DNA of 55,058 nucleotides from an uncultured Eubacteriales bacterium (GTDB lineage: Bacteria > Bacillota > Clostridia > Lachnospirales > Lachnospiraceae). Made by a program: the position numbers and the translations under genes. The first letter of the stretch is position 1; every line of letters starts with the position of its first letter. The notes beneath the pieces were generated by a model that was not told the DNA's origin, ran no database searches, and worked only from the letters and a program-made list of their open reading frames with translations. Below, in pieces: positions 1 to 9,750 of this stretch. The DNA lies in contig ONEC01000019.1 in assembly GCA_900316715.1 (NCBI GenBank), positions 1 to 55,058 on the forward strand. Reading direction: 5' to 3'.

Positions 1-306
<306 letters not shown>

Positions 307-324
307 CGAAGAATTATGAGCAGC

Positions 325-475
325 GTCATTGTAAGATGACAGATTTCGTCCAAGCTTGCTTGGTAAGAAATATGTTCATCGAACAATGCGGTCGTTCAGA
401 ATGAACGACATCGCTGATTGAAAGCAGCGAAGCTGCGACCGACGGCAAAGCCGGAGGAATCAGCGATTAACGCTG
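325..475 (+). other. Multi-hairpin intergenic RNA element between atpE and atpF
   Basis: This 215-base gap inside the operon is packed with perfect inverted repeats. They are GTCAT/ATGAC (325-340), CCAAG/CTTGG (350-363), TGTTC/GAACA (373-385) and GTCGTTCA/TGAACGAC with a GAA loop (391-409). A 9-bp closing stem TCGCTGATT/AATCAGCGA (411-419 with 458-466) encloses two further hairpins: GCAGC-GAA-GCTGC (424-436) and CGGC-AAA-GCCG (443-453). The second hairpin is flanked by a possible tandem G-A step. CAGCG at 461-465 can instead pair with CGCTG at 471-475, which would exclude the closing stem. No U-tract follows, so it is not a standard terminator. A role in processing, stability or differential expression of atpE over atpF is inference. 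Confidence 0.6.
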
Positions 476-521
476 CGAAAGACACTATGAATAATATTAT
501 TAATTAAAGGAGCAAATATCT

Positions 522-1016
522 ATGTTAGGTATTGATATACAGCAGATTCTCCTGCATCTTCTGAACTTTGTAATACTTTTCACAGGTCTTTATGTTCTTC
601 TTTACGGACCTGTAAAGAAGTTTATGGACAGCCGTATTGAAGAATACAAGAAGCAGGATGATGAGGCAGAAGAAAAGCTTAAGAATGCTGAAAAGCTTGA
701 AGCTGAATATAAAGAGAAGCTTGCAGGCGCAGATGTTGAGATAGCAGAGAATAAGAAGAAAGCATCAGCTGAGATCAGTGTTGCAAGAGAGAAGAGTGAA
801 GATGAGGCAAGAGCTCAGGCAGAGTCTATCCTTGCAGCTGCAAGAAAATCTGCAGAGATTGAGAAGGAAGAGATTCTTGAAAGCGCAAAGGGCGAGATAA
901 CAAAGATGGTTGAGGAAGCAGCATCCAAGATGATCCTTTCAAGCAACACATCTGAGGTATTTGACGCTTTCCTTGCAAATGCCGAAAGGAGTACAGCAAA
1001 TGGCACAGGAGCCTAA
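522..1016 (+). CDS. atpF: ATP synthase F0 subunit b
   Basis: This is the peripheral stalk subunit that ties the membrane sector to F1. The 164-residue protein has one N-terminal membrane helix (about residues 8-30, [20 protein letters not shown]) and then a long charged Lys/Glu/Ala-rich coiled coil to the C-terminus, the standard b architecture and length. It starts at ATG 522 behind AAAGGAG. It carries no added delta-like domain, which matters because the next gene is not atpH. Its end overlaps the start of the alpha gene by 17 bases, suggesting translational coupling. Confidence 0.95.
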
Positions 1017-2795
1017 TGAAGTTAAGAAGGTCCTGGAGTGCTATATCTATGCGGCAGTTGAACCATCTGCTGAGCAAATAAGCGGATTCAAAGACTTTCT
1101 TGCAAATAAATATAAGAATAGAGAAATTGAGCTTGAGTTTAAGATGGATAAAACTATCGGCAAAGGTTTCAAGCTCATAGCCGGTGATGATATATATGAC
1201 TGGACTGAAGTGGGACGTTTCGCTCAGTTCAAAGACTTTATGGAAGGAATCCGTACAGGCGGAACTTTTTCAGGTGACGGAAGATATGATATCTCCAGAC
1301 CGGCTGAGGATGTTCCGGACCTTGTAACACTTATCAAGAGCTCTATCGAGGAATGGTCTCTCGCACCTATTGCTGAAGAAGAGGGACATGTAAGTTCAGT
1401 CGGAGACGGTATAGTTGTTGCTAAGGGACTTGAGTCTGTTGAATACGGTGAGATAGTTATATTTGATTCAGGCGTTAAGGGAATGGTACAGGATCTTAAA
1501 TCCGATGAAGTCGGTATCATTCTGTTTGGTAGTGATGATGATGTATCTGAGGGAAGCCGTGTAAGACGTACCAAGAAGACTGCCGGTGTTCCTGTAGGTG
1601 AAGACTTCCTTGGAAGAGTAGTAGATTCACTTGGTAATCCTATAGATGGAAAAGGACCTATCAACGCTGATGGATACAGACCTATTGAAACTCCTGCACC
1701 GGGAATCGTAAAGAGACAGTCAGTCGATACACCTATGAATACAGGTATCGTAGCTATTGACTCTATGTTCCCTATAGGAAGAGGACAGAGAGAGCTCATA
1801 ATAGGTGACAGACAGACAGGTAAGACAGCAATCGCTGTAGATACTATCCTCAATCAGAAGGGTAACGGCGTTGTATGTATATATGTTGCCATCGGACAGA
1901 AGGCATCAAGTATAGCTCAGCTTGTAGATAATCTGACAAAGCATGGAGCTATGGATTATACAATAGTAGTTGCGGCTACTGCCAGTGACTCAGCACCTAT
2001 TCAGTATATTGCACCTTATGCAGGCTGTGCTATTGCTGAATACTTTATGTATAAGGGTAAGGATGTTCTTATCGTATACGATGATCTTTCAAAGCATGCT
2101 ATAGCATACAGAGCACTTAGTCTCCTGCTTGAGAGATCTCCGGGACGTGAGGCTTATCCTGGTGACGTATTCTATCTGCATTCAAGACTTCTTGAGAGAT
2201 CAGCAAGACTTTCAGATGATTTTGGCGGCGGAAGTATAACAGCACTTCCTATAGTTGAGACACAGGCCGGTGATGTATCGGCTTACATACCAACAAATAT
2301 CATATCCATCACTGATGGACAGATATTCCTGGAGTCTGACCTGTTCTTCGCAGGACAGAGACCTGCCGTTAACGTAGGTCTTTCCGTATCCCGTGTAGGT
2401 GGTGCGGCACAGACTAAGGCTATGAAGAAAGCAGCAGGAACCATAAGACTGGATCTTGCACAGTATAGAGAAATGGAAATATTCACCCAGTTCTCAAGTG
2501 ATCTGGATGAAACAACTAAGAAACAGCTTGCTTATGGACAGGGACTTATGAGACTGCTCCGTCAGCCTCAGAGTAATCCATTCAAGCCTCATGAGCAGAT
2601 TATCATGCTGGTTGCAGCAACTGCCCATGTTATGCAGGATATTAAACCTGATGACATTATAAAGTTCCGTCAGGGACTCCTGGATTATTTCCATGAAGAA
2701 GAGAATGACATCTGTGAACAGCTTGAAAAGAGCGGACAGATGAGTGATGAGACTAAAGCTGAGATTATAGAGATATCGAAGAAGTATCTGGAAAT

Positions 2796-2817
<22 letters not shown>
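1000..2817 (+). CDS. atpA: ATP synthase F1 alpha subunit with N-terminal delta-subunit-like domain
   Basis: The C-terminal ~500 residues are a canonical alpha subunit, the non-catalytic nucleotide-binding partner of beta. Evidence is GDRQTGKT (269-276), [21 protein letters not shown]-like KRQSVD, and [10 protein letters not shown] near the arginine finger. The 605-residue product is about 100 longer than usual. Residues ~6-85 read like the C-terminal domain of the delta/OSCP subunit: a beta strand, a PSAEQ helix, then [20 protein letters not shown] and IYDW. These can be aligned to the E. coli delta ending around its KIDKSVMAG and AGDMVIDGS motifs. A Gly-rich linker (~85-104) precedes the alpha crown domain. 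No separate atpH lies between atpF and this gene. ATG 1000 is preferred over an upstream in-frame ATG at 961 because AAAGGAG at 985-991 precedes it by 8 bases. Confidence 0.93.
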
Positions 2818-5088
<2,271 letters not shown>

Positions 5089-5123: not shown

Positions 5124-5579
5124 ATGAAAACGTTTCATGTAAGAATATATGAGGCAGACAACCCTTTCTTTGAGGGAGATATTGAATCTATCGTGGTACC
5201 TGCTACTGATGGAGAATATGGAGTTCTTGCAGGACATCAGAACATGGCTATCGCTCTTACTGAAGGAGAAATGAGATTCCGTACCGGAGATACCGTCACC
5301 TTTGGAAGCGGTTTAACCGGTAAGCGCGAGATTCAGCCAAATAGTGAGTGCAGTGCTGTTATCTCAGCAGGAATGATGAGAATAGAGAATAACGATGTCC
5401 TCATTCTTATAGATGCCGCCGAGTGGCCGGACGAGATAGATGCAGAGAGAGCTATCAGGGCTAAGGAGCAGGCTATGGAAGAAATGTTATCCAAGCGCAG
5501 CCGTGCCGAATATGCTCTGGCAGAGGCATCTCTCAAGAGAGCAATCGCAAGACAGCGATTTGTTGAGAGAAATTTCTAA
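5124..5579 (+). CDS. atpC: ATP synthase F1 subunit epsilon
   Basis: Epsilon sits on the gamma foot, couples to the c ring and can inhibit hydrolysis. The N-terminal beta-sandwich shows FEGDIESIVVPATDGEYGVLAGH, the family signature, and the C-terminal ~45 residues form the expected two-helix domain rich in Ala/Glu/Arg. At 151 residues it is slightly long compared with the usual ~135. It is the last gene of the operon, separated from atpD by 35 bases and followed by a strong terminator. Confidence 0.95.
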   Translation: MKTFHVRIYEADNPFFEGDIESIVVPATDGEYGVLAGHQNMAIALTEGEMRFRTGDTVTFGSGLTGKREIQPNSECSAVISAGMMRIENNDVLILIDAAEWPDEIDAERAIRAKEQAMEEMLSKRSRAEYALAEASLKRAIARQRFVERNF

Positions 5580-8097: not shown

Positions 8098-9750
8098 ATG
8101 AGTTATCAGGAAGAAGAAGAGAGACTCAGGATGATCCAGGCGGAGACTGAGAGAAAGAAAAGAGAACTTCAGATGCTGCAGGAAGAAGAGCTGAGACATA
8201 TCAGAGAGCTCGAGCGTATTAAACAGCAGACCGGCGGCTATGAAGAGGAATATGATCCGGAGATGGATTCTGCTTTTGCGTCAGTGCAGCAGCCGAGACA
8301 GTCGGTACAGATACCACCGCAGGGACAGTATATTCAGAACCCGATGGCACAACAGCAGAGACCGGTGCAGCAGCCACAACAGCAGAGACCGGTGCAGCAG
8401 CCACAGCAGCAGAGACCGGTACAGCAGCCACAGCAGCAGAGACCGGTGCAGCAGCCACAACAGCAGAGACCGGTGCAGCAGCCACAGCAGCAGAGACCGG
8501 TACAGCAGCCACAGCAGCAAAGGCCGGCACAGAGACCGCCACAAAATCAGCAGAGGTACGAGAAAGACATGGGCAGAAATAAATATGATGATTATGATGA
8601 CGATGATGACGGAGCAGACTTTGATGTAGCAGCTTACAGAGCAGCTGAAAGAGCAAAGAAGCAGCAGGCGGCAGGTGGAAGAAAACCATCCAAGGCAGCT
8701 TCTGATACACGTCATCAGTCAAAGAAGAATAATAATAGAAGACCGGCAGAAGAAGATTACGAAGAGAGAAGACCTAAGAAAAAGAAGAAGAAAAAGAGTG
8801 CATTTGGAAGATTTATCAGATTCATACTTTTCCTGCTTCTGATCCTTATCGTAGTACTTGCATTCTTTGTAAATATCATTTTATCGAAGTTTGATCATAT
8901 AGATACAGAAGTTGCTTCAAGATCAACTTCCATGACGGGATCACAATATAACATTCTCTTTATCGGACAGGATGCCCGTGAGGGAGAGAGCGGACAGAGA
9001 TCTGATACGATGATCCTCTGTACTATTAATAAGACTAATCACACAGTTGTTCTTACATCTCTCATGAGAGATATGTATGTTGATATTCCGGGATATGGCG
9101 GAAACAGAATAAATGCTGCCTATGCCTTTGGTGCAAGTGGTGGTATTGAAGGAAGTGTTAATCTTCTGGACAAGACCATTGAAGAAGATTTCGGTGTGAC
9201 TATCGATGGAAATATGCTTGTAGATCTCGGAACTTTCCTTGACGCACTTATATCTGTAGGTAACGTTGATATGGAACTTACAGCTGAGGAAGCAGAGTAC
9301 ATGAACGAGAATCCTGCCATCGGCTCTAATACAGATGAATCTGATGAAGTATGGGAACTTCATGAAGGAATGAATTCACTTACACCAACTCAGGCTATGT
9401 GTTATGCAAGAATGAGACATGTAGGTAATTCTGACTGGGAAAGAACAGAGAGACAGCGTAAGCTTATCAAGGCTGTTATCAGCAAGGTTAAGCATGGCCA
9501 TCTCCTTAGCGGAATAAAGATTGCCAATGGTGTGGCTCCATGTATCACAACAGATCTTAGTAAGGCTGAAATCCTTAAGATGGGATTCGGCATTGTATTT
9601 GGTGGTGATATGCAGAGTTACAGACTTCCTGTAGAGGGAGCTTATTATAACGACAATATTGACGGCATGGCCGTACTTGTACCTGATATGGAAGCAAACA
9701 GAAATTACCTTCAGCAGTATATGTCAGGTGAATATTCTGAAGATGAGTAA
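8098..9750 (+). CDS. LytR-CpsA-Psr (LCP) family cell wall glycopolymer ligase with Q/P-rich cytoplasmic tail
   Basis: LCP proteins transfer undecaprenyl-linked glycopolymers such as teichoic acid or capsule to peptidoglycan outside the cell. The catalytic domain (about residues 280-490) shows NILFIGQDAREGE, RSDTMILC, LTSLMRDMYVDIPGYG, RINAAYAFG and a late MCYARMRH, all typical. The N-terminal ~235 residues are cytoplasmic and unusual: a Glu/Arg/Lys-rich coiled coil (1-45), seven near-identical 9-residue Gln/Pro repeats (~85-147), an Asp-rich patch and a Lys-rich stop-transfer segment. One membrane helix (~238-260) follows. At 550 residues it is well above the ~300-400 of plain LCP proteins, and the extra length is mainly this tail. 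It starts at ATG 8098 behind GAGGGG. Confidence 0.92.
   Translation: MSYQEEEERLRMIQAETERKKRELQMLQEEELRHIRELERIKQQTGGYEEEYDPEMDSAFASVQQPRQSVQIPPQGQYIQNPMAQQQRPVQQPQQQRPVQQPQQQRPVQQPQQQRPVQQPQQQRPVQQPQQQRPVQQPQQQRPAQRPPQNQQRYEKDMGRNKYDDYDDDDDGADFDVAAYRAAERAKKQQAAGGRKPSKAASDTRHQSKKNNNRRPAEEDYEERRPKKKKKKKSAFGRFIRFILFLLLILIVVLAFFVNIILSKFDHIDTEVASRSTSMTGSQYNILFIGQDAREGESGQRSDTMILCTINKTNHTVVLTSLMRDMYVDIPGYGGNRINAAYAFGASGGIEGSVNLLDKTIEEDFGVTIDGNMLVDLGTFLDALISVGNVDMELTAEEAEYMNENPAIGSNTDESDEVWELHEGMNSLTPTQAMCYARMRHVGNSDWERTERQRKLIKAVISKVKHGHLLSGIKIANGVAPCITTDLSKAEILKMGFGIVFGGDMQSYRLPVEGAYYNDNIDGMAVLVPDMEANRNYLQQYMSGEYSEDE
8350..8538 (+). repeat. 27-bp tandem repeat, seven units, inside the LCP gene
   Basis: Six units coding for the 9-mer QQQRPVQQP (8350-8511) and a seventh degenerate unit (8512-8538) run without spacers. 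The units differ only at two silent sites (CAA/CAG and GTG/GTA). Units 2-3 carry the same silent pattern as units 5-6, pointing to duplication of a multi-unit block. Because 27 is a multiple of three, copy number can change without breaking the frame. Confidence 0.95.

Follow-up and report, generated by a model that had tools for sequence, protein, structure and literature searches.

Fusion of the delta C-terminal domain to the alpha subunit in ATP synthases of Lachnospiraceae, and how many stalks such an enzyme may carry

An ATP synthase is generally held to possess a single peripheral stalk and a single a subunit. How many stalks, then, should one expect of an enzyme in which the part of delta that holds the stalk has been joined to alpha, of which every F1 has three? 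The question is raised by the beginning of a 55,058-nucleotide stretch of DNA (contig ONEC01000019.1, assembly GCA_900316715.1; here called the window) from an uncultured Eubacteriales bacterium. A sequence-only reading of the window, which placed it correctly in the family Lachnospiraceae and was right to see a puzzle in three alphas against one delta, proposed that the alpha gene begins with the C-terminal domain of delta and that atpH is missing. That interpretation is, overall, partly supported: the fusion is confirmed, but its presumed novelty is not.

The fused gene lies on the forward strand at 1000..2817, encodes 605 amino acids from an ATG at 1000, and is preceded by a ribosome-binding site (AAAGGAG, 985..991, forward strand) 8 nt 5' of that ATG, within the end of atpF. 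Residues 1-107 match the Pfam OSCP profile (PF00213) significantly (E 2.6e-7; 31.3 bits, cut-off 22.3), and because the match sets residues 6-77 (1015..1230) on profile positions 97-168 of 172, what is present is the C-terminal domain only, without the N-terminal helical domain (NTD) of a full-length delta. The NCBIfam delta model TIGR01145 is matched under its cut-off (E 1.9e-6, 70 of 172 positions). Predicted fold elements run on to residue 86 and are followed, still on the forward strand, by a linker (residues 87-107, 1258..1320) of low confidence in the predicted model, by an alpha N-terminal helix that the model shows as retained (residues 108-118, 1321..1353), and by the beta-barrel, nucleotide-binding and C-terminal domains of an ordinary alpha (1372..2784; PF02874, PF00006, PF00306). 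These three domains, together with 756.6 bits on TIGR00962 (atpA; cut-off 484.45), identify the alpha subunit of an F-type ATP synthase. N-ATPases are F-type enzymes without a delta gene, and we considered that identity as well; it was rejected because the alpha scores 599.1 bits on TIGR03324, below that model's cut-off of 750.5, while exceeding the ordinary atpA cut-off.

An AlphaFold model of residues 1-132 has a mean pLDDT of 66.9 (about 80-84 over residues 11-70), and its best 46 Foldseek matches in the PDB, 9jc1 among them, are chains of ATP synthase entries aligned over 64-115 columns; the chains that we recognised are, we take it, delta, OSCP or b-delta. The predicted fold of the fused N-terminus agrees with that of a delta C-terminal domain. 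A model of the full-length alpha, of modest quality (mean pLDDT 68.8), served for secondary structure and domain confidence only. The Gly-rich linker that had been described is indeed found in the window, but it is a feature of the window and its closest relatives (L004-L006) alone, and the linker at other loci is shorter and different.

The genes around the fusion, all on the forward strand, run atpE-atpF-atpA-atpG-atpD-atpC, and the window opens inside atpE (c subunit, 1..306), which is truncated by the contig start, was named by eye, and is complete in the near relative L093. The b subunit has its own gene, atpF (522..1016, 164 amino acids, PF00430 E 2.2e-19), whose product is the expected partner of the delta domain; the last 17 nt of atpF are also the first of the fused gene, which leaves no space for atpH. 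Downstream lie atpG (gamma, 2796..3707, PF00231), atpD (beta, 3700..5088, PF00006/PF02874) and atpC (epsilon, 5124..5579, PF02823/PF00401). The epsilon, of 151 amino acids, has an apparent beta-sandwich insertion, with 96 residues on 80 positions of the PF02823 profile and TIGR01216 matched in two stretches. The atpE-atpF spacer (307-521) folds at -73 kcal/mol (z -6.5 against shuffles); long folded spacers also occur in the near kin L093 and L094 and are absent from five other loci checked, Rfam gives no match up to E 0.1 in window positions 1-3000, and the fold possibly serves translation control between c and b. Farther along, a 27-bp tandem repeat (8348-8527; 6.7 copies, 94% matches) encodes a Gln/Pro-rich stretch of a 550-residue ORF that, judged by eye, resembles a LytR-type protein.

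Could the missing half of delta be encoded somewhere else? The window's genome is a draft, 98.6% complete, in 195 contigs, and the fusion is its sole PF00213 match above the cut-off. One further match (C130, 20 bits) is below the cut-off, in an ORF that appears by eye to be unrelated, and was rejected as a delta. A Lachnospiraceae NTD profile (A3), built from 23 sequences and run on 34 genomes, recovered all eight positive controls at E <= 7e-15 and found nothing at E <= 1 in the window's genome. Nor did it find anything below E 0.05 in any of the 26 genomes, the window's included, that show only a truncated fusion (that is, one without the NTD); weak matches at E 0.07-0.8 turned up in five of them. 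These 26 had been chosen as seemingly delta-less and are a check, not a frequency; one (G005) is a single contig of 3.19 Mb. The NTD that the sequence-only reading could find nowhere in the window was thus not found in the whole draft genome either, and the genome searches yielded no separate delta for this enzyme.

Two sources of confusion deserve mention. PF00213 matches seemed to extend into the NTD across one stop in seven genomes (G029, G012, G033, G005, G032, G122, G007) and without a stop in an eighth (G128); because the NTD profile matches none of the eight below E 0.05, we read these extensions as helical b sequence. Two were inspected singly: the extra matched part in G128 is the end of b, and the gene preceding the fusion in G005 (locus L129) is atpF. 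A frameshifted or relic NTD adjoining the gene was sought in all six frames of the fetched locus DNA, some of which stops at contig edges, and at E < 0.05 it appeared at 0 of 127 truncated loci, at 26 of 28 loci filed by length as fusions of the whole delta, and at 15 of 15 loci with separate genes. The whole-delta loci without the signal, L084 and L224, were then moved to the truncated class.

The same layout has been made by design. According to PMC12229609 (2025), the NTD of the Bacillus PS3 delta was deleted and the remainder joined to alpha; cryo-EM of the resulting deltaDeltaN-alpha enzyme revealed as many as three stalks and a subunits, its H+/ATP was 5.8 instead of 3.0, and the equilibrium gradient was halved, at an incomplete stalk occupancy of about 2 by gel and 1.26 by cryo-EM. 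The authors note that the alpha N-terminal helix normally contacts the NTD, argue that the NTD enforces one stalk, and guess that there are natural exceptions; they point to a natural fusion of this kind in Acidaminococcus fermentans and in two further UniProt entries, G4Q3K6 and A0A1I2C5T3, and consider it highly likely that the A. fermentans enzyme has several stalks. The belief of the earlier reading that no delta-alpha fusion had been described does not survive this paper, which engineered one and reports natural cases.

How close is the resemblance? In the window, too, the delta C-terminal domain stands in frame before alpha, the NTD is missing, and the draft genome yields no separate delta. 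The window protein aligns with the engineered chain (PDB 9jc1_I) from residue 15 to 594, on 7-573, so the native enzyme is best read as one of the same design; the family profile also spans the delta-alpha joint of that chain. The PS3 enzyme differs in being designed, in the GGSGGS joint of the aligned chain, in the deletion of the epsilon C-terminal domain, and in having a measured stalk number. The Acidaminococcus fusion, as PMC12229609 describes it, is like the window's in being natural and lacking the NTD, but that paper names it for a few species, whereas the Lachnospiraceae have many cases, along with whole-delta fusions and separate-gene neighbours. The b-delta fusion of mycobacteria likewise joins delta to another stator subunit (b-delta chains were among our matches), but its partner is b, whereas in the window b is a separate protein of 164 residues and the NTD is lost. 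The mycobacterial fusion retains its NTD. The passages of PMC5709465 that we consulted describe a b-delta fusion alongside other arrangements of the genes and contain no delta-alpha fusion; among the matches listed in searches of the open-access literature, PMC12229609 is the only paper on this design that we recognised, and we recognised none on it in Lachnospiraceae.

The survey of the family that had been proposed shows the fusion to be common. Among 397 Lachnospiraceae genomes, PF00213 matched 325, and the fused N-terminus (A1) also matched 325. The best 83 of the 325 A1-matched genomes, typed by length and domain content, hold 47 truncated fusions (one of them also fused to b), 26 whole-delta fusions, 8 pairs of separate genes in one frame, and 2 unclassified loci (L075 and L218, on cut contigs). 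As family counts these are lower bounds; outside the best 83, only G131 and G434, of one genus, were typed; their fusions are truncated ones and sit on another branch of the alphas. Delta-alpha fusion is therefore widespread in Lachnospiraceae, a finding that is new here; in 24 genomes from other families of the order, there was no stop-free match covering the domain among the matches listed. At L079, L082, L083 and 23 other loci, the whole delta is joined to alpha, its NTD being, in aligned fragments, several residues shorter than that of conventional deltas. As a further observation, the c subunits of L093, L129, L161, L276, L277 and others begin with a signal-peptide-like extension of about 50 residues (extended c subunits of fused operons reach 116-142 amino acids overall), which was not seen in three whole-delta, two separate-gene and three conventional operons, nor in the truncated G103.

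Within the genus, the match takes in the delta domain in 36 of 37 genomes (the window's included), the exception being G035, where it begins at residue 129; the fusion is therefore not a matter of chance. A ribosome-binding site precedes the fused start at all 30 same-genus loci fetched, and a scan of 80 loci from named genomes found one of at least 5 nt at 70, one of 4 nt at 8, and none at 2; both scans chose among candidate starts by the quality of the site, a choice that favours this outcome. In 7 of 10 pairs the domain has a dN/dS of 0.05-0.22 (dS is saturated in the other three, and for several of the seven it is high, reaching 1.55), which points to purifying selection on it.

How did the fusion come about? 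At the eight loci with separate genes, alpha lies in the frame of delta, with one stop between them in seven and two in L189, and alpha starts 0-14 codons after the last stop; with a single stop intervening in seven of the eight, loss of one stop could yield the fusion. A quick tree of 101 alphas places the conventional ones, six of which come from genomes with a truncated fusion as well, in a clade of their own (support 100), while the truncated, whole-delta and separate-gene loci are intermixed, with weak deep branches. Forcing the truncated loci into one clade is rejected (lnL 262 lower, p-AU 0.0003). The tree calls for 13 changes between truncated and whole-delta, 3 between fused and separate, and its close pairs of differing type include L183/L192 and L213/L217 (99 each). 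As truncated fusions do not make up a single clade, repeated loss of the NTD after fusion is probable; regain seems unlikely, and we infer the direction separate to whole-delta to truncated. Separate-gene loci nest among fused ones, which, with the weak deep branches, makes several fusions or re-splitting possible.

Beyond the family, a phylum-wide set of 398 genomes contributed G721, G487, G537 and G646, whose stop-free matches (E <= 1e-30) reach partly or wholly into the domain. OSCP is above its cut-off in G537 and in G646, which is a fragment, and weak in G487 (E 0.029, below cut-off). The quick tree sets G131/G434 and G487, G537 apart from the main clade, and AU tests do not reject joining either to it (p 0.106 and 0.398) or to each other (p 0.48); because these tests allow a common origin, we do not claim independent, convergent fusions. 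The truncated fusion of G721 (L233), from another family of the same class, adjoins the Lachnospiraceae locus L076 in the tree (99), through either transfer or an issue of classification.

One genome goes further. In G128 (L224, 943-3303), a stop-free frame of 787 amino acids comprises a whole b (PF00430 E 1.8e-18), the delta C-terminal domain (PF00213 E 3.7e-7) and alpha. By eye, there is no ATG between b and the delta domain, and there is a TTG without a clear ribosome-binding site. It is the only b-delta stop-free match at E <= 1e-20 in the 397 family genomes (five candidates scored per genome), and G128 is a single draft, the one genome of its genus in the set, so the triple fusion may be real or an assembly error. 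If it is real, every alpha would carry a b strand.

What, then, would such an enzyme do? In an ordinary enzyme the NTD of delta occupies the threefold axis of the alpha3beta3 crown and permits only one peripheral stalk. With the NTD lost and the C-terminal domain, the holder of the b2 stalk, joined to every alpha, the covalent joint would take over the tethering role, and each F1 would present three equal docking sites for b2; more than one b2-a unit would mean more ions per ATP and hence ATP synthesis at a low ion gradient. That the fusion replaces the NTD tether and gives three docking sites is, in our analysis, the most likely reading, and that it makes the NTD dispensable fits with truncated fusions being polyphyletic. 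For the native Lachnospiraceae enzyme, we infer both the presence of several stalks and the use this would have: an engineered enzyme of the same design bears up to three stalks, so the natural one may too, and we incline, if only somewhat, toward a natural deltaDeltaN-alpha F-type ATP synthase with more than one b2-a unit per enzyme. The joint could, instead, be a shortcut tether in a single-stalk enzyme, where one of three delta domains binds b2 (the a subunit or the supply of b allowing a single stalk) and the NTD is redundant. At five loci inspected, the fused operons have the ordinary layout, with one atpF and one atpB-like gene apiece. The existence of whole-delta fusions shows that fusion does not require NTD loss, and since the entire delta, NTD included, is fused in 26 surveyed genomes, fusion alone is no proof of multiple stalks; the three NTDs of such fusions could not all occupy the axis. 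Proteolysis might also trim two of the three alphas. In the window design, however, we saw no feature limiting it to one stalk, and PS3 enzymes of the same design have up to three, with an a subunit each (PMC12229609); the single-stalk arrangement is a possibility that we take seriously but doubt.

Or might only some alphas carry the domain? If internal initiation or proteolysis left one fused alpha and two plain ones, the result would be an ordinary enzyme with one delta, and an ATG, GTG or TTG does occur in the linker at 94 of 115 assessable truncated loci and 13 of 24 whole-delta loci. With a ribosome-binding site required and loci without a recognisable landmark left out, however, linker starts are about as frequent as in control windows: 15/113 (13.3%) against 122/1130 (10.8%) for truncated loci, and 3/24 (12.5%) against 29/240 (12.1%) for whole-delta loci. 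The fused starts have such a site at 99/113 and 23/24, respectively, and the linker itself varies in length and sequence. Starts near residue 100, proteomic evidence of which the sequence-only reading had named as fatal to its proposal, are thus not enriched, and we expect the domain on all three alphas unless it is cut off afterwards; a mixture of alphas seems to us improbable. We find it hardly credible that the enzyme is completed by a separate NTD, or a full delta, encoded at another place in the genome. At least 17 of the 37 same-genus genomes do have a second, conventional-looking alpha, and all six conventional operons fetched have a separate delta ORF of 178-188 amino acids; but in the six genomes with both, that delta adjoins the conventional alpha, whose clade is a separate one, and the window's genome and the 25 others with only a truncated fusion lack NTD matches below E 0.05.

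As for physiology, the window's genome carries, besides the F-type operon, a gene for a V/A-type ATPase subunit (PF01813 E 3.7e-62). In genomes with two F-type operons, the conventional c subunit reads GIGQG...AETTGLYG, which we take to be a Na+ signature, in three of four upstream regions fetched (none was recognised in the fourth), and the fused-operon c subunits examined are without the Gln, which tentatively suggests two F-type enzymes on two ions. According to Hackmann and Firkins (PMC4478896), each of 62 genomes of rumen butyrivibrios encodes every F-type subunit, and 76% encode Rnf as well as Ech pumps; their main text contains neither the word "fused" nor "atpH". A bolder picture is one that we hold tentatively and rate a little below even odds: multi-stalk, multi-a enzymes would be normal in gut and rumen Lachnospiraceae, having arisen by loss of the atpH/atpA stop codon and repeated loss of the NTD, geared to low gradients, with b fused on in one lineage and a conventional, probably Na+-type enzyme kept in some. 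The same cut in the NTD, made apparently more than once in a large family of anaerobes with cultured strains, makes the guess of natural exceptions directly testable, and has consequences for the ion/ATP ratio, a figure basic to fermentation energetics.
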